From Granulicella sp. WH15 (GTDB lineage Bacteria > Acidobacteriota > Terriglobia > Terriglobales > Acidobacteriaceae), in contig NZ_CP042596.1 of the NCBI RefSeq assembly GCF_009914315.1, forward strand, positions 62,001-126,000: a stretch of DNA of 64,000 nt, read 5' to 3'. Position numbers and translations under genes: made by a program. Shown here in pieces: positions 14,064 to 63,505 of this stretch (its first letter is position 1; every line of letters starts with the position of its first letter). The notes under the pieces are model-generated. The model saw only the letters and a list, made by a program, of their open reading frames with translations, did not search any database and was not told the DNA's origin.

Positions 14064-14801
14064 ATGAAAATGCGCTTAGCTGTGCTGGTGGGGATGGTTG
14101 GGTTCATGGCGCCGATGCTGGCTGGGCAGACGGTTCAGCAGACCCTGCAGGTGAGCAGGGACAACAAGACAATCTCGGTTACGGCGACGGATACGGCAGA
14201 GGCGCTGGCGGATACGGCCGAGGTGTCGGTGGGGTTTGTTGTCTATGGGGCATCTGAAGACCAGACCTATGCGGACGCCAGCCGGATCTCGAACCGGGTG
14301 ATGAAGGCGCTCGAGGATTCGGGGGTGAAGTCGGACCAGATCCAGAGTGGATCGCAGAACCTGAGTCCGGTCGACCCGAACGACAAGCAGCGGTATGGCG
14401 CGGGGATCCGGTTCGTCTTTCGGCAGAGTTGGCAGGTAAAGGTGCAGGCGTCGTCGGCGGCCGAGGTGCTGCATCTGGCGGTGACGAACGGGGCCAACGA
14501 GAGCGGCGGGATTGCGTGGAGTCTGGCGGCTGAGGGCTCGCTGGAGGCGCAGGCGGCGGAGAAGGCGCTGGCCCATGCGAAACAGATTGCGGAGCGCATG
14601 GCTGCGGGGCTGCATGTGACGTTGGGGCCGTTGGTATACGCGAGCAATCAGGCTGGTATGCGGCCAGGGCCGGTGATGATGGCGATGGCTAATGCGCCGA
14701 GGATGCTGAAGGAGGCGAAGCCGGAAGTGAAGCCGCTGGCCATCTCGCCGGGTAAGGTGAGTCGGTCAGCCACGGTCTACGCAGTATTTGCCCTGGAATA
14801 G
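14064..14801 (+). CDS. Secreted SIMPL-domain (DUF541) protein
   Basis: The 245-residue protein has a signal peptide (MKMRLAVLVGMVGFMAPMLAG) and a SIMPL/DUF541 domain, seen in the opening ISVTATDTAEALADTAEVSVGF, the SQNLSP segment and the EKALAHAKQIAERMA helix. Family members are periplasmic or outer-membrane proteins of poorly known role. GGGAGG (14051-14056) lies 7 bases before ATG 14064, better than ATG 14058. It is probably transcribed apart from the oxidase genes because of the terminator between. Confidence 0.85.
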   Translation: MKMRLAVLVGMVGFMAPMLAGQTVQQTLQVSRDNKTISVTATDTAEALADTAEVSVGFVVYGASEDQTYADASRISNRVMKALEDSGVKSDQIQSGSQNLSPVDPNDKQRYGAGIRFVFRQSWQVKVQASSAAEVLHLAVTNGANESGGIAWSLAAEGSLEAQAAEKALAHAKQIAERMAAGLHVTLGPLVYASNQAGMRPGPVMMAMANAPRMLKEAKPEVKPLAISPGKVSRSATVYAVFALE

Positions 14802-14972
14802 CACTTCGTGCCGTTCTCGGGGCGGCATGGGTGAATTATCTGCATGGAGCCTCCCGCTGGTTGGCAGCGAACATCTTTGTTTCCGACCAACGGGAGGACC
14901 AAGCGAAGCAGTAAAAAGGCGTGCAAACGCCCGCCCTCTGCGGAGGAGGCCCATCCGGCAGGACAGGCCCTT
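14801..14972. repeat. Intergenic hairpin repeat, copy 1
   Basis: Contains the GCAC-TTC-GTGC core, the long hairpin (arms 14850-14864 and 14883-14897), the AAAAA-GGCGT/ACGCC stem (14913-14931) and the CCGGCAGGACA tail. Confidence 0.85.
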
Positions 14973-14976
14973 GAAC

Positions 14977-15369
14977 TTAGTTAGCAGGCTTGGCGGCGGC
15001 GTGCTTGGAGGTCCACACGACTGCCTTGTCGACGACCACATACAGCAACTGGTCGGTATCGGCCTTGGCAGTGCGCTTGATGTACTCGCCCATGCGTTTG
15101 CCTGCGGCTGCGTCGTCGGGCAGGGTGATGCCGCGATTCTTGGCCGAAAGCTCGGCGAGGGTCTCGATCATGCCGAAGAAGACGGTCTCGTCCTTGCCAC
15201 TGGCGATCCAGGCGTCATGCACGGTGGAGGTAACGAGCTGCTCGGTGCTAAGCGTGGTGGCGGCCGGGGTCTGAGCCCGGAGGGCGACCGGCGTCAGGGC
15301 GAGAGTACCGGCGAAGACGGCGCAGGTGGTGAGCTTGCGGAGGCGGAGCATCGGGGACGACGGGATCAT
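14977..15369 (-). CDS. Small secreted protein, unknown
   Basis: I place the start at ATG 15369 (GAAAGG upstream), giving about 130 residues: a basic N-terminus, a signal helix ending at an ALRAQ cleavage-like site, then a mature helical domain (STEQLVTSTVHDAWIASGKD) of about 90 residues with no cysteine. I do not recognise the family. It sits 67 bases downstream of another small secreted protein on the same strand, so the two may be co-transcribed. Confidence 0.75.
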   Translation of the reverse strand: MIPSSPMLRLRKLTTCAVFAGTLALTPVALRAQTPAATTLSTEQLVTSTVHDAWIASGKDETVFFGMIETLAELSAKNRGITLPDDAAAGKRMGEYIKRTAKADTDQLLYVVVDKAVVWTSKHAAAKPAN

Positions 15370-15436
15370 GGCAGTAGCCTTTCTCGTTTTCGTATAGAGC
15401 TGATAGGAAGCAGATTCGCGCCGGTTGCAGAGCTGT

Positions 15437-15769
15437 TTAGCGCCGATAGTAGTTGTCACGGCGGTTATTCTGAGCGGCCTGGCCGACGACAGCTCCGATA
15501 CCGGCTCCGGCTGCACCGCCGATGATCGTTCCCTTGAGGCCGCCGCCGAGCAGCGCCCCCAGAACCGCGCCGCCGCCTGCACCAATCAGCGCACCCTTGC
15601 CAGGCCCGATGCCATTGTCGCGGCGGTGATAGCGGTCTCCGTTGCCATAGTAGCCGCCGCGCCCGCCATTACGGACGCCGCCGTAAAAGTTGTTGCGCTG
15701 GGCGGAGGCTGCAACAGTACTGAGCAATAGGACGAGCACTGCGAAAAAGGATAATTTTCTGTGAAACAT
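15437..15769 (-). CDS. Secreted glycine-zipper protein
   Basis: About 110 residues from ATG 15769, which is preceded by GGAGG. A signal peptide (FFAVLVLLLSTVAASAQ) is followed by a Gly/Arg/Tyr-rich linker and a classic glycine zipper (GKGALIGAGGGAVLGALLGG...GGAAGAGIGAVVG). Such zippers insert in or pack against membranes, as in the YMGG/17-kDa antigen families. The C-terminus is Asn/Arg-rich (NNRRDNYYRR). The exact role is unknown. Confidence 0.8.
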   Translation of the reverse strand: MFHRKLSFFAVLVLLLSTVAASAQRNNFYGGVRNGGRGGYYGNGDRYHRRDNGIGPGKGALIGAGGGAVLGALLGGGLKGTIIGGAAGAGIGAVVGQAAQNNRRDNYYRR

Positions 15770-15962
15770 AGAACCTCCGCGTGCGAGCTTCGTGAAGCCA
15801 TAAAAGAACTTCTGCCCGGTTAGATGCGGACTGAAGCCGGATTGTTGAAGCTCTTTGCAGATAAATCGCGTCCAATCAACTCTGGCAGGAATTCTGCCCC
15901 AACCGATCTCCGACGAGTCCTGACGGATCATTTCGTCCAACCAACCCAATGGAGGGGAAGCA

Positions 15963-16955: not shown

Positions 16956-17330
16956 GCACTTCGGCACTTCGTGCGGTTCTCGGGGCCGCATGGGAAAGTA
17001 ATCCGCATGGGGCCTCCCATTGGTCGGCAGCAAGAATCTTTGTTTCCGACCAACGGGAGGACCACTCGAAGCAGTAAAAAGGCGTGTAAACGCCCGCCTG
17101 CCCGGCGCAAGGGCGCTATTGCAGTTGCTGTTGCCTGTTTTCTTGGTTGTCATTCAGGAGCGAAGCGGAGGAATCTGCTTCTGTCTTTGCCGTTGCCGTT
17201 GCTTCTGGGGTAGGTCCGGGCTTTAGCCCCCGAGGTATGCTTTCTTTTCTCAACTTCAAAAGCAAAGGCAAAAGCGCCCTCACGCCGGGCGGGCGGCACT
17301 TCGTGCGGTCTTGGACGCTTCGCGTGAGAG
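16956..17330. repeat. Intergenic hairpin repeat, copy 2 (long composite)
   Basis: The most complete array: core, long hairpin (17013-17027 with 17046-17060), AAAAA-GGCGT/ACGCC stem (17076-17094), the CATTCAGGAGCGAAGCGGAG module (17132-17250) and a second core near 17290. It fills most of the gap between the reductase and the epimerase. Confidence 0.85.
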
Positions 17331-17433
17331 GCCAAGATCTCCAGGCTCCGCTCTTATCCTTTTTTCCTTTTTATCCCCGTTTCGCCTTGCTTTTCGTTCT
17401 AAAGATGAACGCCGCCGCGTCCTTGTAAGCTGG

Positions 17434-20021: not shown

Positions 20022-23000
20022 ATGGACCAGTGGAGCCCTGTGCTTTTTGACTGCACCACCTTGCTGTCGTCTGCCTGGTATCGCCGCAAACAGCGCCTTG
20101 CCGCGTTTATCGTTGGCTGCGTGCTGGCGTTGGCGGCAGGCTCAGCGTGGGGCCAGCAGCTCGTCCCCTTGCAGGCCGCAAGCAGCAGAAGGCTGACGGC
20201 AAACACCCTGCGGACGCAGAGATTTCTGCGCGGCCGTTCAGTTGCGGACGGTCACATCTCGGCCCAGGCGCTGGCTACGGCCCGGCAGCAGCATCTGGAG
20301 TTGGCCGCGCTGCCCCGCGCGTCGAGCCTGAGCGCGGCGTGGACGCCGGTAGGCCCGGTACAGGTAGCCACAGCGGCCTACGGCAACGTCACCGGACGGG
20401 TGACAGCCATCGCCATCGACCCGGCAGATGCCACGGGTAACACGGTCTACGTGGGCACGACCGGAGGTGGCGTGTGGAAGTCCACCAATGCGGCTGGCCC
20501 GGTGGCGGATGTCCACTTCACACCGCTCACCGACACTCTTCCGGTCTTCGACGCCGGAGCGGGAGCCTCCGTGCTGCCCTCGCTGAGCATCGGCGCGCTG
20601 TCCCTCGCGAACGGCGTACTGCTCGCGGGCACGGGCGACCCGAACGACGCCTCGGACTCCTACTACGGCGGCGGCGTGCTGCGCTCGACCGACGGCGGAG
20701 TCACCTGGACGCTGATCCAGCAGACCCCCATCGGGCTGGCGGGCAGCTTCAGCTTCCTCGGGCTCAGCTTCGCGGGCTTCGCCTCCTCCAGCACCACGGT
20801 CGTAGCGGCGGTCACGCAGGCTGGCGACGCGGCCACGGTGAACGCGGTGCCGCTCTCGAACAGCCGTATGGGCCTCTTCTACTCGCAGGATGCGGGCGCG
20901 ACGTGGCAGATGGCCACCATCATGGACGGCAGCCAGACGGTGCAGTCGCCTACCTCGTCGAGCGGCGGCGGCAACGCGGCCACGTCGGTGGTATGGAACC
21001 CGGTGCGCAAACGTTTCTACGCGGCGCTGCGCTACCACGGCTACTACGAGTCGCTCGACGGCATCACCTGGATGCGGCTGGCGGCGCAGCCCGGCGCAGG
21101 ATTGGCCCAACCGGCTTGCACGGCCAACACCGGCCCACCGGGCGAGTATGCCTGCCCCCTCTTTCGCGGCGCGCTGGCGGTGCAGCCTGCGACGGGCGAC
21201 ATGTTCGCCCTGACGACGGACGGCAACAACCTCGACCAGGGACTGTGGCAGGACGTCTGCGCCCCCACGGGCAGCGGCTGCGGCAACGCGACGGTTGCGT
21301 GGGGCAAGCAGATCGGGACGAGCCAGCTCGAGGTCGCCAACGGCAGCACCGAGATCGTGCAGGCCGGGTACAACCTGGAGCTGGCAGCCGCGCCAGCAGG
21401 TGCGGACACGGTGCTCTACGCCGGAACGGTGGACCTCTTCCGCTGCTCGCTGACGGCGGGGTGCGTGTGGCGCGACACGACCAACGCGCTGAACGGCTGC
21501 GCGGCCCCGGCCAGGGTTGCGCCCTCGCAGCACGCGCTGGCGCTTCTGGGTGGCAGCAGCTTGCTCTACCTGGGCAACGACGGCGGCCTCTGGCGCTCAA
21601 CCGACGGAGCGAACGAGTCCGGCAGCCCCTGTTCGTCCACTGACGCGAGCCACTTCGACAACCTGAACGGCGGGCTAGGCTCGCTGGCCGAGGTGGTGAG
21701 CTTCGCCCAGCACCCCACCGACCCGGCGACGCTGCTGGTGGGCCTGGGCGCGAACGGCACCGCAGGAACTGGTTCAGCGGGAACGAATCCGTGGACACAA
21801 CTGGCGACAGGCGAGGGTGGGACGGTCGCGATCGACCCTGCGGACCCGAGCCTCTGGTATCTCTCGACCGCCGCCGGGGTGAACATTGGTCGTTGCGCGA
21901 ACGGCGCAGCCTGCACTGCTGGTGATTTCGCCGGGCTGGCCACCATCGGGCAGGCCCAGGTGGACAACGACACCTCCGAGACCGACGCGCCCTGGCTGCT
22001 CGACCCGGCTCTGACCTCGAACCTCATCGTAGGAACCTGCCGTGAGTGGCGCGGACCCGCCGCAAACGGTTCGCAGTGGTCGAGCAGCGATGCGATCAGC
22101 AGCCCCTTTGGCGATTCGACGGCGAGCAGTTGCAGCTCCACTCTGCCGCTGGTGCGGTCTCTGGCGGCGGGCGGCGTAACGAGCGACGCGACGGCAAACA
22201 TGGGTTCGCCCGTACTGTACGCGGGGCTGGCCGGAACCTCCGATGGCGGCGGCGGCCTGCCCGGCCACCTCTTTATGACCAAGGCGGCGGCCACCGCGAG
22301 CAGCACGACAGCATGGACCGACGCCGCGCTCTCCAGCGTGAGCAACGATCCTGCGTCGGCAGGCGTCTTCAACCCCGGCGGCTTCGATCTCTCCTCCGTC
22401 ACGGCGGACCCGCACGACACAACCGGCGCGACGGTCTACGCGACGGTGATGGGCTTCGCGGGCAACGGCGTCAACGCGCCGCACGTCTACCGGTCGGTCG
22501 ACTTCGGCGCGGACTGGACAAACATCTCCGGCAACCTGCCCAACGCGCCCGCCAACAGCCTGGTCGTCGACCCGAACGACGCCAACACGGTCTACGTCGC
22601 GATGGACACGGGCATATATGTAACAACAAATGTATCAAGTTGCGCCAGCACCAACTGCTGGACGATCTACGGTTCTGCCCTGCCCGATTCGCCGGTGGTC
22701 GGACTCGCAGCGGCGGCGGGAATGGCCGCCGGCGACGGTCGCACGGGCGAACTGCGGGCGGCGACCTACGGCCGTGGCATCTGGCAGATCCCGCTGCTGA
22801 CGGCGCTAGGCCCATCTGCTCCCGCGATCTCGCTCACCCCGTCGTCCCTGACCTTCGCCAGCCAACAGCAGAGCACGGCGAGCGCCCCCCAGAGCGTCAC
22901 CGTAACCAACACCGGCAGCACGGCGATGACGGTCAGCAGCATCACGACCTCGGCGGGCTATGCGCAGACCAGCGACTGCATCGCCACACCAATCCAGCCC

Positions 23001-24542
23001 GGAGCGACGTGCACCGTGCAGGTGACCTTCTCGCCCGTGGCGACAGGCGCGAGCAGCGGCCTGTTGACGGTCTACGCCAATGTCCCCGGCGGCCAGGGCA
23101 CGGTCGCGCTCAACGGCACAGGCACAGCCCCGGCGGCAATTGTGCTGACGCCACTGGCGCTCACCTTCCCCAGCACGCTGATTGGGTCCACCAGCGCGGT
23201 GCAGAACGTCACCGTCTCGAACACGGGCGGCGCGCCGGTCGCGCTCGAGACGCCGAGCATCTCCGGCCCCTTCAAGATCGCGGCCAACACCTGCGGCACG
23301 AGCCTGCCGTCCCAGACCGGGTGCACGGTCTCGATCGCCTTCGCCCCCAACGCATCGGGCGCGGCCACCGGCACCTTCACCATCGCGGACGACGTGGGCA
23401 TCCAGACGGCGAGCCTTTCGGGTACCGGCACCTCTCCCGCCACCGACACCCTCGCGCCGCTGAGCCTGACCTTCGCGGCGCAGCAGCAGGGCACGGCCAG
23501 CGCGACCCAGCAGGTGACCCTGACCAACTCCGGCGACGTGGCCCTGACCCTGATCGCGGCCACGATCACCGGCGGAGACTATGCGGTGGTGAACGGTTGC
23601 GGCAACTCGCTGAACGCGCACTCCAGTTGCGCGTTTTCGGTCTCGTATACGCCGCGCAGCATCGGCGCAAACACGGGCACGCTCACGGTCTCGGACGAGT
23701 TCCGCAGCCAGCAGGTGGCGCTCAGCGGCTTCGGCCTGGCCCCGCCGGGAGTCTCGCTCTCACCGTCGCTGCCGCTGGTCTTCGCGGCGGCTCCGCTGGG
23801 CGTGGCCTCGGCGGCCCAGATCGTTACCCTGACCAACAACGGCGGGGTTCCGCTGTCGGTCGGGAACGTGACGGTAAGCGGCGACTTTGCGGTTGCGGCG
23901 GGGTCGAACACCTGCGGCAGCACGCTGGCGGCGGGGGCGGCCTGCACACTCGGGATCGTGTTTACGCCCACGGGGGCGGGTCTGCGCGGCGGGGTACTTA
24001 CGATTGCGGATAGCGCGGCCAACTCGCCGCAGACGCTGGCCCTGACGGGGGCCGGGGTGGACTTTACTCTGGCGGCCAACGGGCCGACCAGCATGACGCT
24101 GACGGGCGGCGGAGCCGGGACATTTGCGCTGCTGCTCAGCTCTCCGGCGGGGGTACCGGGGTCGGCGACGTTTACCTGCTCGGGGCTGCCAGCATACGCG
24201 AAGTGCATGGTGACGCCGTCCACCGTGGCCTTGGGGACGACCACGACGGTCTCAGTGGCTGTGGCTACCGATGTGGTGAGCGCGTCGGTAGTGAACCGTA
24301 AAGTGGTATGGCTTGCCGGGTTGCTGCCTTTGGGGCTGCTGGCTCTGCGACGGAGGCGGTTTGCCGGGGTGGTTTTGTTGGTTTTGATTGGGGTGACGGG
24401 GTGCGGGTGGGGGCGGCTGGTGCCGGGCGACGGGACGCCAACGGGGCCTTCGACGACGCCGGGTGGGAGTTCTACGATTGTGGTTTCGGCGAGTAGCGCG
24501 GGGCTGGTGCGGAGCGTGAACCTGACACTGGCGGTGCAGTAA
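20022..24542 (+). CDS. Giant secreted beta-propeller and Ig-like repeat protein
   Basis: The 1,506-residue protein has a signal region (about 27-45), then a sortilin/BNR-type beta-propeller (repeated SxDGGxTW-like boxes, e.g. VLRSTDGGVTWTLI and SVDFGADWTNI). About four ~100-residue choice-of-anchor-D/HYDIN-like Ig domains follow (LTFASQQQSTASAPQSVTVTN and relatives), each with a Cys pair. Near the C-terminus is a hydrophobic segment with an Arg cluster (LPLGLLALRRRR) followed by another beta strand set. Probably surface-exposed. Substrate or adhesion role unknown. Confidence 0.8.
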   Translation: MDQWSPVLFDCTTLLSSAWYRRKQRLAAFIVGCVLALAAGSAWGQQLVPLQAASSRRLTANTLRTQRFLRGRSVADGHISAQALATARQQHLELAALPRASSLSAAWTPVGPVQVATAAYGNVTGRVTAIAIDPADATGNTVYVGTTGGGVWKSTNAAGPVADVHFTPLTDTLPVFDAGAGASVLPSLSIGALSLANGVLLAGTGDPNDASDSYYGGGVLRSTDGGVTWTLIQQTPIGLAGSFSFLGLSFAGFASSSTTVVAAVTQAGDAATVNAVPLSNSRMGLFYSQDAGATWQMATIMDGSQTVQSPTSSSGGGNAATSVVWNPVRKRFYAALRYHGYYESLDGITWMRLAAQPGAGLAQPACTANTGPPGEYACPLFRGALAVQPATGDMFALTTDGNNLDQGLWQDVCAPTGSGCGNATVAWGKQIGTSQLEVANGSTEIVQAGYNLELAAAPAGADTVLYAGTVDLFRCSLTAGCVWRDTTNALNGCAAPARVAPSQHALALLGGSSLLYLGNDGGLWRSTDGANESGSPCSSTDASHFDNLNGGLGSLAEVVSFAQHPTDPATLLVGLGANGTAGTGSAGTNPWTQLATGEGGTVAIDPADPSLWYLSTAAGVNIGRCANGAACTAGDFAGLATIGQAQVDNDTSETDAPWLLDPALTSNLIVGTCREWRGPAANGSQWSSSDAISSPFGDSTASSCSSTLPLVRSLAAGGVTSDATANMGSPVLYAGLAGTSDGGGGLPGHLFMTKAAATASSTTAWTDAALSSVSNDPASAGVFNPGGFDLSSVTADPHDTTGATVYATVMGFAGNGVNAPHVYRSVDFGADWTNISGNLPNAPANSLVVDPNDANTVYVAMDTGIYVTTNVSSCASTNCWTIYGSALPDSPVVGLAAAAGMAAGDGRTGELRAATYGRGIWQIPLLTALGPSAPAISLTPSSLTFASQQQSTASAPQSVTVTNTGSTAMTVSSITTSAGYAQTSDCIATPIQPGATCTVQVTFSPVATGASSGLLTVYANVPGGQGTVALNGTGTAPAAIVLTPLALTFPSTLIGSTSAVQNVTVSNTGGAPVALETPSISGPFKIAANTCGTSLPSQTGCTVSIAFAPNASGAATGTFTIADDVGIQTASLSGTGTSPATDTLAPLSLTFAAQQQGTASATQQVTLTNSGDVALTLIAATITGGDYAVVNGCGNSLNAHSSCAFSVSYTPRSIGANTGTLTVSDEFRSQQVALSGFGLAPPGVSLSPSLPLVFAAAPLGVASAAQIVTLTNNGGVPLSVGNVTVSGDFAVAAGSNTCGSTLAAGAACTLGIVFTPTGAGLRGGVLTIADSAANSPQTLALTGAGVDFTLAANGPTSMTLTGGGAGTFALLLSSPAGVPGSATFTCSGLPAYAKCMVTPSTVALGTTTTVSVAVATDVVSASVVNRKVVWLAGLLPLGLLALRRRRFAGVVLLVLIGVTGCGWGRLVPGDGTPTGPSTTPGGSSTIVVSASSAGLVRSVNLTLAVQ

Positions 24543-24544
24543 AC

Positions 24545-24675
24545 GCGCAGCGTCGAGTACCGCACGAAGTGCCGCCTGCCCGGCGTTAGGGCGCTTTTGC
24601 TGTTGTTTGTCCTGCCGGACGGGCCCGCTGCGCGCGGGGCGGGCGTTTGCACGCCTTTTTACTGCTTCGCGTGGT
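24545..24675. repeat. Intergenic hairpin repeat, copy 3
   Basis: Complement of the core (CCGCACGAAGTGCC), TGTCCTGCCGGAC and the stem GGCGT-TTGC-ACGCC-TTTTT (24642-24660). Here the T-run follows the stem on the + strand, so it could terminate the giant gene. Confidence 0.85.
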
Positions 24676-24679
24676 GGAA

Positions 24680-26897: not shown

Positions 26898-26976
26898 GCA
26901 AAAACGGCCCTCCCGACCGACGGGAGGGCCACGCGAAGCCGAGAACCGCACGAAGTGCCCCGTCCGGTAGGACATG
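26898..26976. repeat. Intergenic hairpin repeat, copy 4
   Basis: A perfect 10-bp stem, GGCCCTCCCG (26906-26915) with CGGGAGGGCC (26921-26930) and a 5-base loop, then CCACGCGAAGC and the core complement. It may end transcription of the reductase. Confidence 0.8.
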
Positions 26977-27004: not shown

Positions 27005-28321
27005 ATGCCCGAAGCCGGAGTAGACGAGCGCGCGACCTATGCCCGGGTCACCTGGCGTCTGCTGCCGATCCTCTTCCTCTGCTACGTCATCGCCTACCTC
27101 GACCGGGTAAACGTCGGCTTCGCCAAGCTTCAGATGCTGCACGACCTGCGCTTCAGCGAGGCGACCTACGGGCTGGGCGCGGGCATCTTCTTCATCGGCT
27201 ATTGTTGCTTCGAGCTGCCCAGCAATCTGCTGCTCAGCCGCTTCGGCGCTCGGCGCTGGATGGCGCGGATCATGGTCACCTGGGGCATCATCTCAGCCTG
27301 CATGTTGTTCGTGCGAACGCCCGCGAGCTTCTACACGATGCGCTGCCTGCTGGGTGTGGCCGAGGCGGGGATGTTCCCCGGCGTCATCTTCTACCTGACG
27401 TTCTGGTATCCGGCGTGGCGGCGCGGGCGGATGGTGGCGCTGTTCATGACGGCGCAGCCGGTCTCCGGCGTCATCGGCGGGCCGCTCTCGGGCTGGATAT
27501 TGCAACAGTTCAACGGGGTGCGGCACCTGGCGGGATGGCAGTGGCTCTTCCTGCTGGAGGCGCTGCCCGCCATCGCGATGGGCGTGGTGCTGTTCTTCTG
27601 GCTGGACGACGGCATCCACGACGCGCGCTGGCTGAGCGAGGCCGAGAAGAGCCTGCTGCTGGGCCACCTCGAAGCAGAGGCACAGCATAAGGAGTCGTAC
27701 CACTCCATTCTGGGCGTGCTGCGCAACCGCTGGGTGTGGCTGCTGAGCCTGATTACCTTCAGCTCGGTGATGGGGCTGTACGGCATCAGCTTCTGGCTGC
27801 CGACGATTATCAAGGCGACCGGGATCACAAAGCCTCTCTCCATCGGCCTGCTGACGATGATCCCCTACGGCGCGGCGGCGGTGGCGATGATCCTGGTAAG
27901 CCGCAGCGCAGACCGCAGCGGCGAGCGGCGCTGGCATCTGGCGCTCTCGACTACGGCGGGCGGGCTGGGGCTGATCTTTGCCACGATCTTCGCGGGGGAT
28001 ACGGCGCTCTCGCTCGCCGGACTGACGCTGGCGACGGCGGGTATCATCACCAGCCAGCCACTCTTCTGGAGCCTGCCGACGGCGTTCCTGGGCGGCACGG
28101 CCGCGGCGGCGGGAATAGCGCTCATCAACACGGCGGGCAACTCAGCCGGGTTTGTCAGCCCATACGTGATCGGGTGGATCAGCAGCGCGACCCAGAGCAC
28201 GCGGGCGGGGATGTACGTGCTGGCGGGATCGCTGTTTCTTGGATCGGCACTGACGCTGCTGGTGCCGAAGAAGCTGGTCGAGCGCGGACGGGCAATAGAA
28301 ACAACAACAAAAGCGTCCTAA
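27005..28321 (+). CDS. MFS transporter, anion:cation symporter-like
   Basis: The 438-residue protein has 12 helices and an MFS signature of the ACS family (phthalate/hexuronate/tartrate type): RLLPILFLCYVIAYLDRVNVGFAKLQM, then GLGAGIFFIGYCCFELPSNLLL and the RIMVTWGIISA loop. Likely imports an organic acid by proton symport; substrate unknown. GAAGGG precedes the ATG. The last few codons and the stop fall within an intergenic repeat unit. Confidence 0.85.
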   Translation: MPEAGVDERATYARVTWRLLPILFLCYVIAYLDRVNVGFAKLQMLHDLRFSEATYGLGAGIFFIGYCCFELPSNLLLSRFGARRWMARIMVTWGIISACMLFVRTPASFYTMRCLLGVAEAGMFPGVIFYLTFWYPAWRRGRMVALFMTAQPVSGVIGGPLSGWILQQFNGVRHLAGWQWLFLLEALPAIAMGVVLFFWLDDGIHDARWLSEAEKSLLLGHLEAEAQHKESYHSILGVLRNRWVWLLSLITFSSVMGLYGISFWLPTIIKATGITKPLSIGLLTMIPYGAAAVAMILVSRSADRSGERRWHLALSTTAGGLGLIFATIFAGDTALSLAGLTLATAGIITSQPLFWSLPTAFLGGTAAAAGIALINTAGNSAGFVSPYVIGWISSATQSTRAGMYVLAGSLFLGSALTLLVPKKLVERGRAIETTTKAS

Positions 28322-28366
28322 CGCCGGACGGGCGGCACTTCGTGTGGTTCTCGACGCTTCGCGTAT
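28301..28366. repeat. Intergenic hairpin repeat, copy 5 (overlaps a gene end)
   Basis: A short module (AACAACAAAAGCGTCCTAACGC, then GGGCGGCACTTCGTG and TCTCGACGCTTCGCG). It supplies the last codons of the MFS gene. Confidence 0.75.
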
Positions 28367-30965: not shown

Positions 30966-31666
30966 AAGTAGTTCGCGGAGTGTTTGTAGCGGCGTTGTTT
31001 CTGGGGCTGATGGCAATGGGCGCACGGGCGCAGGCTCCTGCTTCGGTGCAGACGTTTTACCTGAGCGGCCAGCCTGCCGATCTGGGCGAGGTGCTTGCTG
31101 TATTGCGTAACTCGCTCGATGCGGATGCCAAGGTGAATGCGGTGGGATCGCAGAACGCGATTGTGGTGCGCGGGAGCGCGGAGCAGCTGGCGGCCGCGCA
31201 GAAGCTCATCACCGAGCTGAATCGGCCCAGGAAGAACTTTCGGTTGACCTACACGATTACGGAGGTAGAGGACGGCAAGCGAATCGGCGTGCAGCACTCG
31301 AGCATCATCCTGGTCTCGGGCCAGAAGACCACGTTGAAGAACGGCAGCAAGGTTCCGGTGGAGACGGGGAGCTACAACATGGCGTCCGCGTCGCAGACCC
31401 AGATGACATACCTGGATGTGGGGTTGAATATCGACGCTACGGTGGAGGAGTCACCGGAGGGGGTGCGGCTGCAGACGAAGGTGGAGCGGTCGGGCGTCGC
31501 GGAGGAGAAGTCGATGGTGGGACCGAGGGACCCGGTGATCCGGCAGGCTGTGGTGTGGGGCGCGTCGATGCTGACGCCGGGCAAGCCGCTGATGCTGGGA
31601 TCGTTCGACTTTCCCGGGACGACGCGGCACATGGATGTCGAGGTGATGGCGGAGGCTGTGAAGTAG
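30962..31666 (+). CDS. Secreted protein with secretin-N1-like domain
   Basis: The 234-residue protein has a signal peptide (VFVAALFLGLMAMGARAQA). The N-terminal part (TFYLSGQPADLGEVLAVLRN, then NAIVVRGSAEQLAAAQKLITELNRPR) resembles the N0/N1 ring-building domain of secretins, and a beta-rich C-terminal part (LTYTITEVEDGKRIG) follows. It has no pore-forming secretin core. It overlaps the anti-sigma gene (ATGA), forming a tight three-gene operon. It may be an envelope sensor or an accessory to a secretin. Confidence 0.65.
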   Translation: MKVVRGVFVAALFLGLMAMGARAQAPASVQTFYLSGQPADLGEVLAVLRNSLDADAKVNAVGSQNAIVVRGSAEQLAAAQKLITELNRPRKNFRLTYTITEVEDGKRIGVQHSSIILVSGQKTTLKNGSKVPVETGSYNMASASQTQMTYLDVGLNIDATVEESPEGVRLQTKVERSGVAEEKSMVGPRDPVIRQAVVWGASMLTPGKPLMLGSFDFPGTTRHMDVEVMAEAVK

Positions 31667-31803
31667 GTACTTCGTACGGTTCTCGGGGCAATGTGGAGAG
31701 AAAATTATCGCTGCCGACCAGTGGGAGGCCCTCAGACGCTAATTTCCCATGCCGCCCCGAGAACCGCACGAAGTGCCGCCCGCCCGGCGTGAGGGCGTTT
31801 TTT
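31667..31803. repeat. Intergenic hairpin repeat, copy 6
   Basis: Core variant GTAC-TTC-GTAC, then a degenerate long hairpin, then the core complement CCGCACGAAGTGCC. The core and its complement can pair as an inverted repeat. The short stem has kept pairing while its bases changed. Confidence 0.8.
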
Positions 31804-34392: not shown

Positions 34393-34521
34393 GGGCACTT
34401 CGTGCGGTTCTTGGGGAGGTATGGGGAAGTGATCTTCTGAGGGCCTCCCGTTGGTCGGCAGCGAGCATTTTTCTTTCCGACCAACGGAAGGGCCACACGA
34501 AGCCGGGAATGGCACGAAGTG
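34393..34521. repeat. Intergenic hairpin repeat, copy 7
   Basis: Core, long hairpin CTCCCGTTGGTCGG / CCGACCAACGGAAG, and core complement. It lies between convergent genes. Confidence 0.8.
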
Positions 34522-35859
34522 CTACGGCAGCTTGAAGCCGGGAGCGACGTACTCGTGGCCCATGCCCATGACGAAGGACGGCTTGGTGGTCAAGGTGATG
34601 TCGTCGATGGGGCTGCCGTTGAAGGCGACGATATCGGCTGATTTACCGGGCTCGAGCGTGCCCACCTTGTCGGAGATGCTGAGCAGGTCGGCGTTGCCGA
34701 GCGTGTCGGCCTTCAGCACGTCGAGCGCAGGGACGCCGCACTTCTGCACCAGTATGACCATCTCGCCGCCCAGCGTGCCGCCGAAGTCGGTGCCGACGGC
34801 CATCTTGACGCCGTACTTCTGCGCCAGCCGCACCTGTCGTCCGAGGACGCCGGGCTTCTCGTCGGGCATCCGCAGGATCTTGTTCTTGGTGTTCTGGCTC
34901 AGCGCGGGCGAGCCTTCGTGCAGCAGGTTGACGACGTCGTCGAGCGCGGTCAGGGTCGCGTCGAGATAGACGCCCTTCTCCTTCATCATCTTCGCGCCCT
35001 CATCGTCGAGGTAGATGCCGTGCTCGATCGAATCCACACCCGCGCGGACCGCGGCCTTGATACCCTCCTGGCCGATGGCGTGGGCCATCACCTTGCGCTT
35101 CATCAGGTGCGCGGTCTCGATGATGACCTTGAGTTCGGCGTCGGAGAACTGCTGCTCGAGCCCGGTATCGGAGTCATCGGCGACGCCGGCGGTGGCCATG
35201 ATCTTGATCTGGTCGGCTCCGAGCTGGATCTGCTCGCGGACCTTCATGCGGCAGTTGTCTTCGCCGTCGCAGATGCCGGTGGAGAAGGCGGGCGGCGCGA
35301 GCGAGGCGAGGAAGTTGCCGTTGCGGAAGTCGCCGTGCCCGCCGGTGGTGCTGATGGGTGCGCCCGAGGCCAGGATGCGCGGGCCGTACGCGAGGCTCTG
35401 GGCGATGGCGTCGCGTAGCGGGAAGATAAGCTCGGGCGTCGAGCCTGCGTCCCGCGCGGTAGTGACGCCGGAGAGGATCTTCTCGCGCGAGATGCGCAGG
35501 GCGCTGACGAGGTTTCCGTTGGCGATGTGGGTGTGGGCGTCGATCAGGCCCGCCATGACGAACTTGTCTTTGAGGTCGATGACCTGAACGATGGCGGGTG
35601 GCGCGACTCCGAGCGATGCGGCGTCGACGTAGCCGGGCTTGATGGAGTCGATCTTGTCGTTCTTGACGATGACCGAGACCTGCTTGGCGACGGGTTTCGA
35701 GGCGTCTGCCATCAGGGTGCCCGCGTGCAGGATGTACCAGCTATCGGGCAGCTTGGCGGCCTTGACGTCGAGGACGGAGGGGGCCGATTGAGCATGGAGC
35801 GCAATGGCAGTGAAAGCGAGGAGGAGAGCAGCGAACAACCGGCTGGAGAGAGTCTTCAT
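34522..35859 (-). CDS. Secreted amidohydrolase, paralogue A
   Basis: About 445 residues from ATG 35859, with a signal peptide (LFAALLLAFTAIALHAQ). Metal-dependent amidohydrolase: HxH motif in GLIDAHTHIANG, later His residues in TAHLMKRKVMAHAIGQ and DSIEHGIYLDD, and Asp in AVGTDFGGT. This is the imidazolonepropionase/prolidase-like group, which in soil bacteria includes Xaa-Pro and cyclic-dipeptide hydrolases. It is highly similar to its neighbour, indicating tandem duplication. Confidence 0.85.
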   Translation of the reverse strand: MKTLSSRLFAALLLAFTAIALHAQSAPSVLDVKAAKLPDSWYILHAGTLMADASKPVAKQVSVIVKNDKIDSIKPGYVDAASLGVAPPAIVQVIDLKDKFVMAGLIDAHTHIANGNLVSALRISREKILSGVTTARDAGSTPELIFPLRDAIAQSLAYGPRILASGAPISTTGGHGDFRNGNFLASLAPPAFSTGICDGEDNCRMKVREQIQLGADQIKIMATAGVADDSDTGLEQQFSDAELKVIIETAHLMKRKVMAHAIGQEGIKAAVRAGVDSIEHGIYLDDEGAKMMKEKGVYLDATLTALDDVVNLLHEGSPALSQNTKNKILRMPDEKPGVLGRQVRLAQKYGVKMAVGTDFGGTLGGEMVILVQKCGVPALDVLKADTLGNADLLSISDKVGTLEPGKSADIVAFNGSPIDDITLTTKPSFVMGMGHEYVAPGFKLP

Positions 35860-35867: not shown

Positions 35868-36079
35868 CTCGTGCGGTTCTCGGGATATGGAGCAGTGATT
35901 GTGAAAGGCCCTCCCGTTGAAGAATTTTCATTCCGACCAACGGGAGGACCGAGATTGTTGATTCACCAAGACAAGTATGAAAGTCACGAAGTGACCGCCC
36001 TCCGCGTAGGAGGGCCGTCCGGCAGGACAAAAGCAACTACGCCCTCACGCCAGGCGGGCGGCACTTCGTGCGGTTCTCG
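35868..36079. repeat. Intergenic hairpin repeat, copy 8 (between the two paralogues)
   Basis: Core, partial long hairpin, GTCCGGCAGGACA and a second core near 36060. Separates the duplicated amidohydrolases. Confidence 0.8.
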
Positions 36080-37402: not shown

Positions 37403-37654
37403 GGGTTGCTCCTGAATAGCGTGGATGGACGACGCACGGGGCGGCGTCGAGACAGGGATGCCTGGGCGACGGGGAATCCAGTTTTAGTGATGGATACCAA
37501 TATAATCCCGACCAGCGGGAGGACCACGCGAAGCAGAAAAAAGGCGTGCAAACGCCCGCCCCGCGCGCAGCGGGTCCGTCCGGCAGGACATAGAAGCAAA
37601 AGCGCCCTAACGCCGGGCGGGCGGCACTTCGTGCGGTTCTCGACGCTTCGCGTG
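37403..37654. repeat. Intergenic hairpin repeat, copy 9
   Basis: From about 37500: AAAAAA-GGCGT/ACGCC stem (37537-37556), GTCCGGCAGGACA, then the core at 37620. The T-run falls after the stem on the minus strand, which fits termination of the S9 peptidase gene. The first 100 bases are plain leader. Confidence 0.8.
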
Positions 37655-40839: not shown

Positions 40840-40892
40840 AAAGAAATTGTATGGAGTTCGTGCTTTTCGTGCGCTCGGCGCAGCTCTGTCCT

Positions 40893-40969
40893 GCCGGACG
40901 GGCCGCCTGCGCGGCGGGCGGGCGTTTGCACGCCTTTTTACTGCTTCGCGTGGTCCTCCCGCTGGTCGA
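40893..40969. repeat. Intergenic hairpin repeat, copy 10
   Basis: TGTCCTGCCGGAC, then stem GGCGT-TTGC-ACGCC-TTTTT (40921-40939) on the + strand, although both flanking genes are on the minus strand. Confidence 0.8.
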
Positions 40970-44374: not shown

Positions 44375-44568
44375 ACGCGCAGTGTCCAAAACCGCACGAA
44401 GTGCCGCCCGTCCGGCGTGAGGACGTTGTTGTTGTTGCCTGTTCTTTTGGTTGTCATTCAGGAGCGAAGCGGAGGAATCTGCCGTTGTCTTTGCTTCTCA
44501 GCCGCAAAAGCAAAGGCAAAAGCACCCTCACGCCGGGCACTTCGTGCGGTTCTCGACGCTTCGCGTGT
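44375..44568. repeat. Intergenic hairpin repeat, copy 11
   Basis: Core complement, the CATTCAGGAGCGAAGCGGAG module (about 44430-44500) and a second core. The last part touches the ruvB stop. Confidence 0.8.
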
Positions 44569-47985: not shown

Positions 47986-48160
47986 CACGCGCAGCGTCCA
48001 AAACCGCACGAAGTGCCGCCCGCCTGGCGTAAGGGCGCTTTTGCTGTTGTCCTGCCGGATGGGCCCGCTACGCGCGGAGCGGGCGTTCACACGCCTTTTT
48101 AAAGCTTCGCGTGGACCTCCCGTTGGCCGGAAGAAAGAGCTCTACTTCCGGCCAACGAGA
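47986..48160. repeat. Intergenic hairpin repeat, copy 12
   Basis: Core complement, TGTCCTGCCGGA-like part (48052), stem GGCGT-TCAC-ACGCC-TTTTT (48082-48100), and a long hairpin (TTGGCCGGAAG with CTTCCGGCCAA) just before the SDR stop. The long-hairpin stem differs from other copies but remains fully paired. Confidence 0.8.
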
Positions 48161-50004: not shown

Positions 50005-50270
50005 GTGCCCTAACGCCGGGCGGCACCTCGTGCGGTTCTCGGGGTTGCACGGGTGAGTTGTCAGCAAAGGGCCTTCCGCTGGTCGGCAGCGAGCATTTTG
50101 TCTTTGCCGTTGCCTGTTTTCTTGGTTGTCATTCAGGAGCGAAGCGGAGGAATCTGCTTCTGCTTTTGTCCTTGTTGTTGCTCTTGCCGTTGCTTCGGGG
50201 GTAGGTCGGGGCTTTAGCCCCTGAGGTATGCTTTTTTCAAACCAGCAAAGACGCCCTGCCGGGACAGGTC
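50005..50270. repeat. Intergenic hairpin repeat, copy 13 (composite)
   Basis: Core, partial long hairpin and the CATTCAGGAGCGAAGCGGAG module, including GGGGCTTTAGCCCC (about 50208). It fills the 339-base gap before the glycosidase together with the 21-bp hairpin. Confidence 0.8.
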
Positions 50271-50279: not shown

Positions 50280-50327
50280 CCTTATAGAGTAAAGGGGCTC
50301 CCACAAGAGCCCCTTTACTCTATAAGG
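50280..50327. promoter_or_regulatory. 21-bp perfect hairpin directly before the GH31 start
   Basis: Left arm 50280-50300, loop CCACAA, right arm 50307-50327, fully complementary. The right arm contains the ribosome-binding AAGG, 7 bases from ATG 50335. If transcribed, it could hide the site. It has no T-run, so it is not an ordinary terminator. Confidence 0.7.
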
Positions 50328-52625: not shown

Positions 52626-52720
52626 GTACTTCGTACCGTTCTCGGGGCGGCGTGGGTGAGTCATCGGCAAGGGGGGTCGGCAGCGAAGATTTTAAAACCG
52701 GCCCGGGGAGGCCCTTGCAC
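52626..52720. repeat. Intergenic hairpin repeat, copy 14 (degenerate)
   Basis: Core variant GGTAC-TTC-GTACC, the GGCGGCGTGGGTGAGT spacer and a truncated long hairpin. Both sides of the core stem changed together relative to GCAC/GTGC copies. Confidence 0.75.
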
Positions 52721-54024: not shown

Positions 54025-54593
54025 CCGCCGGACCTGTTTTCCTTGTTTTCCACAAACTTAATCCTCAACTGTGGATCGCTTTTTAGAAGCAAAAGCTTCC
54101 TCACATCGGGCAGTCAGCACTTGCGGTTGCCTGTTTTCTTGGTTGTCATTCAGGAGCGAAGCGGAGGAATCTGCTTCTGTCCTTGCTGTTGCTTCTGGGG
54201 CAGGTTCGGACTTTACTCCCGAGGCTTGCTTTCTTCAGAAACAACAGCAAAAGCGTCCTCACGCCGGACGGGCGGCACTTCGTGCAGTCTTGGACGCTTC
54301 GCGTGTTTCCACTCCCAATAGGAATCTTTTTCCAATCTGGAGCGTCTAAGAATATGGTATTCTGTGATTCGCTGGGGACGTGTGCCTCTGAATGCTCTGA
54401 CTTTCGCCAACGTGCACATAAAGTCACTGAGCTTGCCACCGCGGTCTAAACCGCACCTTATCTCCCGCGCCTTACGACACAACCAAGGGATAACTCCGCC
54501 TGCAAGTGACCTGGGACGACTAGAAGTGACCAGGTTTCGACTCCGGCAGAGCCTTCCCAAACAAAATTTTCTCCCGCAGGAGCGCGTTTAGCC
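54025..54593 (+). other. Long gap before rpoD: repeat array plus leader
   Basis: The first 280 bases hold repeat copy 15 (54086-54307: the CATTCAGGAGCGAAGCGGAG module, then the core). From about 54308 a repeat-free leader of about 285 bases leads to rpoD. It contains TTGCCA (54433-54438), a possible -10-like TTATCT (54458-54463) and a hairpin GCGGT-CTAA-ACCGC. TTTTCCACA and TGTGGAT near 54050 are DnaA-box-like but isolated. Confidence 0.5.
54086..54307. repeat. Intergenic hairpin repeat, copy 15
   Basis: CTTGGTTGTCATTCAGGAGC module followed by the GAGGCTTGCTTTCTTC part and the core (near 54280). Fifth-type module shared with copies 2, 11, 13 and 17. Confidence 0.8.
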
Positions 54594-56297
<1,704 letters not shown>

Positions 56298-56512
56298 AAA
56301 GCGCCCTAATGCCGGGCGGGCGGCACTTCGTGCGGTTCTCGGGGCGGTATGAGTGAGTAATCTTCAAGGGTCCTCCCGCTGGTCGGAAGCGAAATTCTCG
56401 TTTCCGACCAGCGGGAGGACCCTTGCTTTTTAAATCACCAAGACAAGGTATACGCGTCACGAAGTGACCGCCCCGCGCGTAGCGGGCCTGTCCGGCAGGA
56501 CAAGGTTTTTTC
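56298..56512. repeat. Intergenic hairpin repeat, copy 16
   Basis: Core, long hairpin with CCTCCCGCTGGTCGG (56372-56386) and CCGACCAGCGGGAGG (56404-56418), then GTCCGGCAGGACA. The stem carries GC where other copies have GT/AC; the partner strand changed too. Confidence 0.85.
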
Positions 56513-56541
56513 GGCTAATCTTTCTCTGACAGGGGGCGACA

Positions 56542-58179: not shown

Positions 58180-58188
58180 GCACTTCAC

Positions 58189-58415
58189 CACCAGAAAAAC
58201 ACGCGAAGCGTCCAAGACCGCACGAAGTGCCGCCCGCCCGGCGCAAGGGCGCATTTGCCGTTGTTTGTTTTTTGTCTGTTGCCGTTGCTTGTTTTCTTGG
58301 TTGTCATTCAGGAGCGAAGCGGAGGAATCTGCTTCTGCCTTTGCAGTTACCGTTGTTCTTGCTTCTGAGGTGGGTCAGGGCTTTAGCCCCCGAGGTATGC
58401 TTTCTTCTCCCGGCC
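58189..58415. repeat. Intergenic hairpin repeat, copy 17 (composite)
   Basis: Core complement, then the CATTCAGGAGCGAAGCGGAG module (58265-58410) with CAGGGCTTTAGCCCCCG. Located between the antiporter and the DinB-like gene. Confidence 0.82.
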
Positions 58416-58465
58416 CAGAAGAACAATCCACAGCCAATGGATAATATTGTGGAAAACGAGGAAAA

Positions 58466-59005: not shown

Positions 59006-59072
59006 GAACAACGGCAAAAGCGCCCTCGCGCCGGGCGGGCGGTACTTCGTACCGTTCTCGACGCTGCGCGTG
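59006..59072. repeat. Intergenic hairpin repeat, copy 18
   Basis: Short unit AACAACGGCAAAAGCGCCCT, then GGTAC-TTC-GTACC and GTTCTCGACGCTGCGCG. Between convergent genes. Confidence 0.78.
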
Positions 59073-59074
59073 TT

Positions 59075-60850: not shown

Positions 60851-60890
60851 CGGCTTAACTATTGAGTGTAGAAGAAAAGAACGCCTTTCA

Positions 60891-61037
60891 CGTGAAGCGT
60901 CCAATACCCCACGAAGTGGCGCCCGCCCGGCGTGAGGGCGCTTTTGCCGTTGCTTCTCAACGACAAAAGACGTCCTGCCGGACTGGCCTCCTGCGCGGAG
61001 GGCGGGCGTTCGCACGCCTTTTTAAAGCTTCGCGTGG
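60891..61037. repeat. Intergenic hairpin repeat, copy 19
   Basis: CACGAAGTGGCGCC core variant, TCCTGCCGGAC and stem GGCGT-TCGC-ACGCC-TTTTT (61005-61023). The T-run is on the + strand although both neighbours are minus. Confidence 0.8.
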
Positions 61038-61042
61038 CTACT

Positions 61043-61831: not shown

Positions 61832-61939
61832 AGTTTTGATTGGTACTTACACTCCTTTGACTGGTTTAGGCTGGATTTAGATTCAGAAACGAATCCACAG
61901 GGCATTAAAGGGCACGCCTTCAGCCGCTTTCTTATGCAG

Positions 61940-62065
61940 AGAACGGCACTTCTTGCAGTACTTCGCGTGCTCCTCCCGTTGGTCGAAGACAAAAATCTTC
62001 GCTGCCGACCAGCGGAGGCTTTTAAAAACCAATTCCCCATGCAGCCCGAGAACGGTTCGAAGTAC
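61940..62065. repeat. Intergenic hairpin repeat, copy 20 (degenerate)
   Basis: GGCACTTCTTGCAGTACTTCG, CTCCCGTTGGTCG, CGACCAGCGGAGG and CCGAGAACGGTTCGAAGTACC. Stems are partly mismatched, so it may be an older copy. Confidence 0.7.
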
Positions 62066-62272
62066 CCAACCAAGGGCTGGGAACAGGCATCTATGTGGGG
62101 AGCAGGACGAAGTGAGAGAGCAGGATCAAGAGAAAAACGGGAATCATCCTTCACCGCCGATGGGTGGCTTTAGGCACAGCATGACCCCTTCTCTAGCCTT
62201 TTATGCAGCTCTATCCTGGCCCTCGTACAATCGGGCTTGAAGACCTTCCCTGTCTGTTGACATTTTCCTTGT

Positions 62273-62329
62273 CGGTTCAGTGCTGCCTATTCCATAGACC
62301 GTCCAAGAGACGGCCCGATCGCTGAACCG
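62273..62329 (+). ncRNA. Structured leader candidate
   Basis: CGGTTCAGTG (62273-62282) can pair with CGCTGAACCG (62320-62329) with one GU pair, and CCGTC (62299-62303) with GACGG (62309-62313) inside it. Together they form a stem with an inner hairpin about 87 bases before the next gene. No known RNA family recognised. Confidence 0.35.
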
Positions 62330-62416
62330 GACAACAGAACAGCGCCCCTCCCCTGGGCGTTCGACCCAACATGTTTCATGAACCGACTCCATTTTTGAAC
62401 GGCAGGAGCCTGCTTG

Positions 62417-63349
62417 ATGACAATGTTTACTTCTCTTTCGGCGCGCCCGATTACGCGTGCGTGCGCACTTCTATTCCTTCTCACCGGCGGCGCGGGCTAT
62501 GTATCCGCGCAGAGCGCGGCACCGCTGCTTCCCCGATGGACGGCGGAGTCTACCGGAACTTTAGTGGCATCGGCCGAGCCGCTGTCTTCCTCGTCCGTAC
62601 CGGCGGTGGAGACGCCGGAGGCCCCGGCCCCCGCTGCCGCCGCCGCGGCTGGCGGGCAGGCGATCCCCGCCTCGTCGCAGGGACGCTGGGCCTTCTCCTC
62701 GTTCGCGGTAGCGGCCAAGGCCAGCTCCAACGGCTTCGGCGTCGATATCGCTACTCCTCTGGCGAGACAGGTCAACCTGCGTGTGGGCGGCTCGTTCACC
62801 TCGTTCACCACTAACCTGAACGATGACGGATTGCACATCAACGGCACCCTGACGCTCCAGGGCGTCATCGCCGCAGTGGACTACTATCCGTTCCGGCACT
62901 CATCGTTCCATATCAGCCCTGGGGCAAACTTTTACAACGACACCCATATTGGCGCGCTGTTGAGCGTGCCCGCGGGCGGACACTTCTCGCTGGGCGACGG
63001 GGATTACACCAGCTCCGCGTCCGACCCGATCCACGGTACCACGCACTTTGTCTTCGGCAACCACGTGGTGCCTCGGCTGACGGTCGGCTTCGGCAATATG
63101 ATTCCGCGCGGCAGCGGGCACTGGAGCGTGCCGTTCGAGATCGGGTTCCAGTACATCTCGGCCCCGACGGTGCAGTTGGACCTGGCTGGCTCAGCCTGCT
63201 CGTCCGATGGTTGCGGAACAATCGTGGGTGACCCGAATATCGCGATCGAGCGGAAGGATCTGGAGAACGACCTGAGCGCGCTGCGGGTCTTTCCCGTGGT
63301 GAGCATTGGAGTCAGTTACAGATTCGGCAACGGCAACAGAAATCGTTAG
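62417..63349 (+). CDS. Secreted outer-membrane beta-barrel-like protein
   Basis: 310 residues from ATG 62417, with AGGAG 8 bases upstream. Signal peptide (ACALLFLLTGGAGYVSAQ), a Pro/Ala-rich linker, then an alternating beta-strand body (WAFSSFAVAAKASSNGFGV, VNLRVGGSFTSFTTNL, HISPGANFYNDTHIGALLS) ending GVSYRFGNGN, as in outer-membrane barrels with a terminal aromatic. Ligand unknown; possibly a porin-like or surface protein. Confidence 0.75.
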   Translation: MTMFTSLSARPITRACALLFLLTGGAGYVSAQSAAPLLPRWTAESTGTLVASAEPLSSSSVPAVETPEAPAPAAAAAAGGQAIPASSQGRWAFSSFAVAAKASSNGFGVDIATPLARQVNLRVGGSFTSFTTNLNDDGLHINGTLTLQGVIAAVDYYPFRHSSFHISPGANFYNDTHIGALLSVPAGGHFSLGDGDYTSSASDPIHGTTHFVFGNHVVPRLTVGFGNMIPRGSGHWSVPFEIGFQYISAPTVQLDLAGSACSSDGCGTIVGDPNIAIERKDLENDLSALRVFPVVSIGVSYRFGNGNRNR

Positions 63350-63505
63350 TACTTCGCACCGTTCTCGGGGCGGTATGGGGGAATTGGCTTCTGAGGGCCT
63401 CCCGCTGGTCGGCAGCGAAGATTTTTGTCTTCGACCAACGGGAGGACCGCGCGAAGATGGGTACTGCACGAAGTGCCGCGCATAGCGGGCTCGTCCGGCA
63501 GGACA
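63350..63505. repeat. Intergenic hairpin repeat, copy 21
   Basis: Core variant GTAC-TTC-GCAC, then CCTCCCGCTGGTCGG / CGACCAACGGGAGG, core complement and CCGGCAGGACA. It is followed at once by the perfect hairpin. Confidence 0.8.

Follow-up and report, generated by a model that had tools for sequence, protein, structure and literature searches.

The intergenic gaps of a 64,000-nucleotide stretch of Granulicella sp. WH15 (contig NZ_CP042596.1, positions 62,001 to 126,000; G000:C1:62001-126000 in our genome set, G000 being the source genome; hereafter the window), which belongs to a 4.67-Mb single-contig genome, carry arrays of hairpin modules. These arrays are probably a mosaic of palindromes of the repetitive extragenic palindrome (REP) type, resembling bacterial interspersed mosaic elements (BIMEs), that has been spread by some agent and is tolerated, and perhaps co-opted, at the 3' ends of genes. 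An earlier note, made from the letters of the window, had described such a family in about 21 intergenic gaps, and our profile search recovers it as 23 clusters in 21 gaps, 20 of them closed and the last one, after 63349, open. The letters of the modules are as given there, their mixed order and orientation are evident in the cluster architectures, and the 14-kb respiratory operon is indeed devoid of them, no array being found before 14801.

Architecture and location were surveyed in an 864-kb sample consisting of the window and 40 evenly spaced 20-kb stretches of the same genome, the same profile matches being grouped as 136 clusters for architecture and merged into 134 arrays for location. 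Twenty-one stretches with a GC content above 0.61, the window included (464 kb), form a high-GC set, and 20 stretches (400 kb) a low-GC set; the cut at 0.61, which separates presumably native from low-GC DNA, was chosen after the GC and copy-number data had been seen. Genes were called by a simple codon-usage script rather than a standard gene finder, and the small open reading frame at 48169-48510, which has no Pfam match, may be spurious.

The core of the family is far more abundant than expected by chance: the 11-nt pattern GYACTTCGTRC has 476 exact copies genome-wide (245 + 231) vs 5 (5 + 0) for the reversed pattern, and a repeat search of the window returned many families on both strands. 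As seen in the gaps of the window and in full copies of arm A (75) and arm B (80) from this genome and its relatives, the conserved unit is an arm (A, B or C) of about 55-85 nt with two or three small hairpins. Three hairpins make up arm B: a terminal one (CGCCC/GGGCG), the core (GCAC-TTC-GTGC) and a third (ACGC-TTC-GCGT). Arm C has the core in common with it, and the terminal hairpin too where complete, and then runs into a long central hairpin (CCTCCCGTTGGTCGG ... CCGACCAACGGGAGG), either side of which can be flanked by an arm. The stems of arm A are a T5-tailed one (alternatively of the type GTCAC-GAA-GTGAC), a second one, CCCGC/GCGGG, and that of the terminal hairpin, GTCC-GGCA-GGAC. Two separate motifs, D1 and D2, often stand beside or between B arms. 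The commonest architecture is the solo arm B (BL+ BR+ in profile terms; 16 of the 136 clusters), and many mosaics were seen once. GAA/TTC is the commonest loop among perfect 5-bp-stem triloops in intergenic DNA (23/183), a census on which no claim is built since the copies are not independent; mini-hairpins of the GCGAAGC type have extra stability.

The earlier view that the family lies only between genes holds and can be sharpened to gene 3' ends. Called coding sequence (CDS) covers 418 of the 14016 bp of array, and 4 of the 134 arrays lie more than half within it, far from an equal presence inside genes. In the high-GC stretches the median distance from an array to the nearest stop codon is 9 nt, with 72 of 103 within 30 nt, and for gaps of 60 nt or more the share holding an array is 38/46 for convergent, 50/133 for co-directional and 11/52 for divergent ones. 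The eight array-free convergent gaps of that size all measure 60-74 nt, and 14 further convergent gaps are shorter than 60 nt; as the element itself lengthens the gap, there is some circularity in finding long gaps occupied. A whole stop codon is contained in an array in eight cases, and the copy said to supply the last codons of the MFS gene does hold its stop (Table 1).

Copy number follows GC across the sampled stretches (Spearman 0.71), and the low-GC set is nearly empty, with 11 of the 134 arrays. The sampled chromosome falls into two compartments: towards the origin GC is mostly 0.62-0.65, interrupted by a few low-GC stretches, and between about 0.86 and 3.3 Mb it is mostly 0.53-0.60, with high-GC stretches scattered through it. 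The window lies near the origin, dnaA being at 40-1443 of the genome, and within the 21 high-GC stretches copies become fewer with distance from dnaA (Spearman -0.52, p 0.017); origin half vs far half, arrays occupy 45/90 vs 5/43 co-directional and 26/28 vs 12/18 convergent gaps. An origin preference of the element was set aside: the bias would be a trait of this genome, because the copies of one relative (G014) look, by eye, spread over its contigs. An arm-B copy is located at C1:1512-1567, about 70 nt downstream of the DnaA profile match.

Covariation was examined in alignments of arms A and B. The arm-B alignment retained 79 of the 80 copies, one with an insertion having been dropped, and the arm-A alignment 56 of the 75, nearly all of the 19 dropped ones carrying long inserts. 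In arm B the paired fraction is 96.9% of cells, and 34 cells have changes on both sides vs 5.5 in shuffles; in arm A such doubly changed cells number 50 vs 13.9. In the number of paired cells, the number of doubly changed cells and the covariation score, both arms surpass 500/500 shuffles and all slid versions, although shuffle p-values assume independent copies and the actual copies are not independent. The pair types are CG 61/UA 11 in the terminal stem of arm B, GC 64/CG 12 and CG 70/UA 6 in its core, and CG 35/UA 11/GC 3 and GC 23/CG 16/AU 10 in the second stem of arm A. The first stem of arm A pairs in merely 79% of cells because two alternative hairpins stand there out of register. RNAalifold, unaided, drew 7 pairs in arm B, of which 3 show double changes. 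Covariation within arms (core, terminal and arm-A stems) is thus real. In line with this, the change of GCAC/GTGC to GTAC/GTAC proposed from the window is confirmed (GTACTTCGTAC at 31667, 52626 and 59042) and has counterparts in other within-arm stems, the core stem occurring as GCAC, GTAC, CCAC, CTAC and ACAC, with compensation, both inside this genome and between species.

The long central hairpin behaves differently. The 864-kb sample holds 35 of them with each arm of the hairpin at most 4 substitutions from consensus; they are Watson-Crick paired in 444/525 cells, and their most variable pair is uncoupled (TA 11, CG 5, CA 10, TG 7, other 2; Fisher p = 1.0 on 33), so the second proposed covariation, GTTGG/CCAAC to GCTGG/CCAGC, dissolves genome-wide. 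In 6 of 9 paired elements the left core differs from the right one; in three of these six a core is itself mismatched. Selection on, or copying by, structure, as suggested earlier, is therefore borne out for the short within-arm hairpins and not for the long central one. Coupling inside the arm and none between arms points toward the idea that the arm is the inherited unit; it looks as though arms are copied and exchanged as units and reassort.

Relatives extend these observations. The closest named records of one window protein are mostly from Acidobacteriaceae, the top one being Granulicella rosea at 71% identity (the own record was possibly excluded). Among the 61 other genus members the exact core has 1-28 copies per genome, mostly near the reversed control and above it in a few (G019 28 v 6, G017 23 v 6, G006 17 v 4), so that mass amplification of the core is special to this genome among those of the genus. 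A DNA query (37500-37660) matched 21 of 41 genomes; 20 of these are genus members, and the remaining one, a weak match, belongs to a different family of the order. Arm A was present in all 7 genomes chosen for its search (G014 gave 165 first-look candidates), and all 5 genomes chosen for arm B had it, though with just 1 weak match in G014 and 2 in G005. The covariance-model search that the earlier note had advised, made for arm B (R1), matched 38 of 62 genus genomes, with at least 91 matches in G000 and G021. Run across the order, it matched 33 of 249 genomes; 30 of these belong to the genus, and the other 3, which matched weakly, to a single further genus of the same family. The filters of both runs were stricter, at the cost of weak matches. 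By these matches the family is mostly genus-restricted. Plasmid and phage collections gave no match to 37480-37660, and Rfam at gathering cut-offs gave 0 matches.

In relatives, too, the modules stand at gene ends, often with other stems. Among 58 distinct copies, which are the best-scoring loci and not a random draw, 28 are convergent, 23 co-directional, 4 divergent and 3 at contig edges; 2 of the 58 lie mostly in CDS, the median distance to a stop is 9 nt, and 41 of 51 are within 30 nt. A unit of arm B, central hairpin and arm A recurs in G019 (locus L005). Orthologous gene ends gave just 5 comparable pairs, 2 of them with an array in the source genome, too few to draw on. By eye, no arm A, B or C was seen downstream of the orthologue of gene 50335-52623 in the 22 loci inspected out of 44. 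There was one D1-like segment (GTCATCCTGAGCGAAGCG...), in another acidobacterial genome (locus L070), which suggests that D1 is part of a wider repeat family.

Comparisons with known repeats are limited here to what excerpts of the cited sources state. REPs are described as often less than 20 bp from gene ends, in convergent or co-directional gaps, and as supplying stop codons (PMC3733652); as having deserts in foreign DNA (PMC3390384); and as palindromes that seldom overlap coding regions, of 14-40 nt in E. coli (PMC12306157) and 20-60 nt in Pseudomonas (PMC3390384). BIMEs combine palindromic units into mosaics, the orientation alternating and the spacer motifs being defined (PMC2817692). The present arrays agree in being extragenic, with little CDS overlap, in their stem-loops, shared consensus and hundreds of copies, in their alternating-orientation mosaics (136 clusters), gene-end placement and supply of stop codons, and in their foreign-DNA deserts. 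They differ in length, their conserved units measuring 56 and 81 model positions against 14-40 nt, with only the single hairpins within them of REP size; in an arm of two or three hairpins; in a long hairpin shared between arms; and in the independence of the two arms. Copies are also present right up to the origin, where Pseudomonas REPs are typically absent (PMC3390384).

The tags of the two REP super-families were looked for, GTAG on arm B and CGTC on arm A, and are lacking there; we place the repeats outside both. No GTAG consensus stands at either end of arm B (base profiles of 55 own copies). Arm A ends in CCCGTCC-GGCA-GGAC, which includes CGTC, but its GTC forms part of the terminal stem (columns 75-77 of the arm-A alignment), unlike an unpaired tag. 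With CGTC REPs, whose listing covers five other phyla and not Acidobacteria, they share REP-like placement and the lack of a dedicated transposase (PMC3733652, as excerpted). A RepRanger table gives 5,307 REPs and 1,009 terminators for Granulicella aggregans, the families not being described in that part of the source (PMC12306157), and no title or abstract start found in a literature search lying outside subscription journals and preprints describes these modules. Seen from the sequences, the repeats would be a variant of the REP/BIME kind, new in their multi-hairpin arm, independent arms and copies up to the origin.

As regards a copying enzyme, the earlier statement that no REP-associated tyrosine transposase (RAYT) is present is correct for the window, which has no PF01797 gene, and needs qualification for the genome, which has two. 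These near-identical 150-aa Y1 transposases, at L001 (C1:529168) and L002 (C1:1879404), have flanking hairpins of their own with GAA/TTC loops (CCTGGGGC-GAA-GCCCCAGG), on both sides of the gene in L001 and downstream in L002. Those hairpins are unrelated to modules A-D, and exact CTGGGGCTTCGCCCCAG, a sequence belonging to them, is absent from the first 464 kb sampled. The two loci are probably a TIRYT element; a TIRYT group has been reported from Acidobacteria (PMC3733652, in excerpt). PF01797 has 129 matches in 49 of 60 genomes, of which 31 were read (one locus a genome plus both own ones, some contig-cut). D2-like hairpins (GGGCTTTAGCCC) border the gene in 2 of the 31, L056 (G021) and L057 (G062), as an ordinary RAYT REP would, and border neither own copy; D2 looks like an orphan in this genome, its transposase absent. 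For arms A, B and C no transposase is evident.

Several points weigh against a mosaic of folding, mobile palindromes. Unlike GTAG REPs with their RAYTs, arms A, B and C border 0 of the 31 PF01797 genes, apart from a 19-nt partial BR match at a locus edge far from the gene, and G014 and G002, both rich in arm A, are without a PF01797 match. Of five shuffle measures, two fall short of extreme values in both alignments; pairs with a double change were reached by 26/500 and 22/500 shuffles, and further pair types by 134/500 and 55/500. One solo arm B and one arm A fold no better than shuffles (z 0.55 and -0.89), and D1 leans to one orientation (sense/anti to the upstream gene 9/5). Finally, the nearest relative has about 78% DNA identity in the probe gene, and movement is thus deduced from copy number.

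We propose a model in which two arms may join head-to-head around the long central hairpin, stand alone, or combine with D1 and D2. Arms would be copied to many sites, probably via a folded single-stranded or cruciform DNA form, and would reassort between elements, such exchange accounting for their independence. Copies would persist almost solely just behind the stops of native genes and be lost elsewhere by purifying selection, as insertions in coding sequence, promoters and operons would not survive. A bolder proposal, to be entertained only tentatively, is a strand-symmetric system in which the arm with its two or three hairpins is the inherited unit, written at gene 3' ends and recombined pairwise about the central hairpin by a non-Y1 enzyme; if true, stems would drift with compensation inside arms, differently in each species. 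The mosaic also offers, in Acidobacteriota, a REP/BIME-like system sampled well enough to separate strand-neutral placement, the absence of a mismatch bias on the RNA side, and within- vs cross-arm covariation, making the old question of RNA element or DNA element testable. Its families differ by species and share a framework, without an evident transposase, as reported for CGTC REPs.

On that question, nothing indicates selection on the RNA of one strand. Sense/anti counts relative to the upstream gene are BL 20/18, BR 23/24, CL 18/20, A 10/10, A2 8/8 and D2 9/9; those of the central hairpin (CH 26/27) are uninformative, the hairpin being palindromic. RNA constraint on one strand should leave an excess of G-U, and GT pairing in REP stems has been cited as support for an RNA role (Di Nocera et al., PMC3733652, in excerpt). 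Here G-T mismatches hardly differ from C-A: 9 vs 12 in arm B (66 rows of 79, the 13 with end gaps being omitted) and 10 vs 9 in arm A (second and third stems), the strand being unresolved in both, and 15 vs 13 on the transcript strand of central hairpins in co-directional gaps. Folded as single-stranded DNA, four central-hairpin stretches beat shuffles (z -5.4, -6.3, -9.8 and -2.7).

The same data bear on whether the arrays are bidirectional intrinsic terminators or 3'-end stabilisers under selection whose copies spread through usefulness, which we consider unlikely. In the high-GC sample a stem plus T-rich run on the transcript strand is found at 61/126 array-bearing 3' ends vs 24/99 array-free ends (9 and 7 when shuffled once), all convergent gaps longer than 74 nt hold an array, and E. 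coli REPs up to 15 nt from the stop are reported to stall ribosomes (PMC12306157, in excerpt). However, the stem and T-run of an intrinsic terminator should be oriented with the upstream gene, and the T-tailed arms (A, BL) are evenly oriented in co-directional gaps; G-T shows the near parity with C-A given above; array-free ends in convergent gaps are equally terminator-like (8/16); and the long-gap occupancy suffers from the circularity already mentioned. A directional terminator as primary function was rejected, T-tailed arms pointing equally in both directions. The excess of terminator-like sites at array-bearing ends makes a secondary role in termination possible.

It is highly improbable that the arrays derive from a DDE-type insertion sequence as its relics or non-autonomous copies, that is, true miniature inverted-repeat transposable elements with C - central hairpin - C' as the intact form. 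Terminal inverted repeats, the core included, are present in elements of that form (34394-34522 and 31666-31802) and absent from solo arms. Against this reading, no single architecture is commoner than the solo arm B, and one arm of an element varies independently of the other. DNA-uptake-type signals, that is, short words over-represented in native DNA and arranged as inverted pairs where genes end, are scarcely credible, since the high-copy core word, though concentrated in high-GC DNA and at gene ends, belongs to a conserved unit of 55-85 nt, itself changes with compensation, and is rare in other genus members though many carry modules.

The elements that make up the REP-like mosaic in the window are collected in Table 1.

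Table 1. Repeat elements of the window, with strand, composition and basis (z, fold against shuffles)
Position	Strand	Composition and setting	Basis
14801..14964	+	Arm C - central hairpin - arm A (CL+ CH A+); starts on last stop-codon base of gene 14064-14801	Profile matches, sequence
16963..17325	+	Compound: core/C arm, central hairpin, arm A, arm B (-), D1, D2, arm B (+)	Profile matches
24543..24667	-	Arm B and arm A tail-to-tail, immediately behind stop of gene 20040-24542	Profile matches, sequence
26931..26958	-	C-arm end; shortened central hairpin ahead from about 26906	Profile matches, sequence
28309..28364	+	Solo arm B holding TAA stop of MFS gene 27005-28321	Profile matches, gene call
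31666..31802	.	C arm - central segment - inverted C arm, T6 terminal hairpin; left core GTAC/GTAC, right core GCAC/GTGC	Profile, sequence, fold 31667-31790 (z -6.31)
34394..34522	.	Complete C - central hairpin - C' fold-back, fills convergent gap	Profile, fold 34396-34522 (z -5.43)
35911..36079	+	Central hairpin, arm A2 (GTCAC-GAA-GTGAC type), arm B	Profile matches
37504..37642	+	Half central hairpin, arm A, arm B; region of DNA query in relatives	Profile matches
40888..40968	-	Arm A with T5-tailed stem	Profile matches
44375..44566	.	Arm B (-), D1, arm B (+); B arms inverted about D1	Profile matches
47987..48160	-	Arm B, arm A, central hairpin	Profile matches
50005..50234	+	Terminal hairpin/C arm, half central hairpin, D1, D2 (GGGGCTTTAGCCCC)	Profile matches
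52626..52656	+	C-arm end, core GTAC/GTAC	Profile matches
54135..54304	+	D1 (54135-54178), degenerate D2, arm B (54249-54304)	Profile matches
56297..56502	+	Terminal hairpin, C arm, central hairpin of 23 pairs with one G-T, arm A2; most complete of the window, begins about 56290	Profile, sequence, fold 56370-56503 (z -9.83)
58201..58404	.	Arm B (-), D1, D2	Profile matches
59016..59071	+	Solo arm B, core GTAC/GTAC, convergent gap	Profile matches
60890..61030	-	Arm B (core CCAC/GTGG) and arm A	Profile matches
61968..62065	-	Central hairpin and C arm within 870-nt gap	Profile matches, sequence
63349..63505	+	C arm - central hairpin - A2-like arm, behind stop of gene ending 63349	Profile, fold 63349-63498 (z -2.74)

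Among the genes adjoining these elements, two amidohydrolase paralogues stand in tandem (34522-35859 and 36080-37402), each with its own repeat array behind it, and gene 20040-24542 encodes a protein of 1500 aa whose Ig domains are ASH/Cep192/HYDIN-like. Long hairpins, nearly perfect and unrelated in sequence, follow arrays at about 50280-50327 (CCTTATAGAGTAAAGGGGCTC...), just ahead of the next gene, and at 63506-63553 (GTCCCTTTACGCATCTATCGG...).

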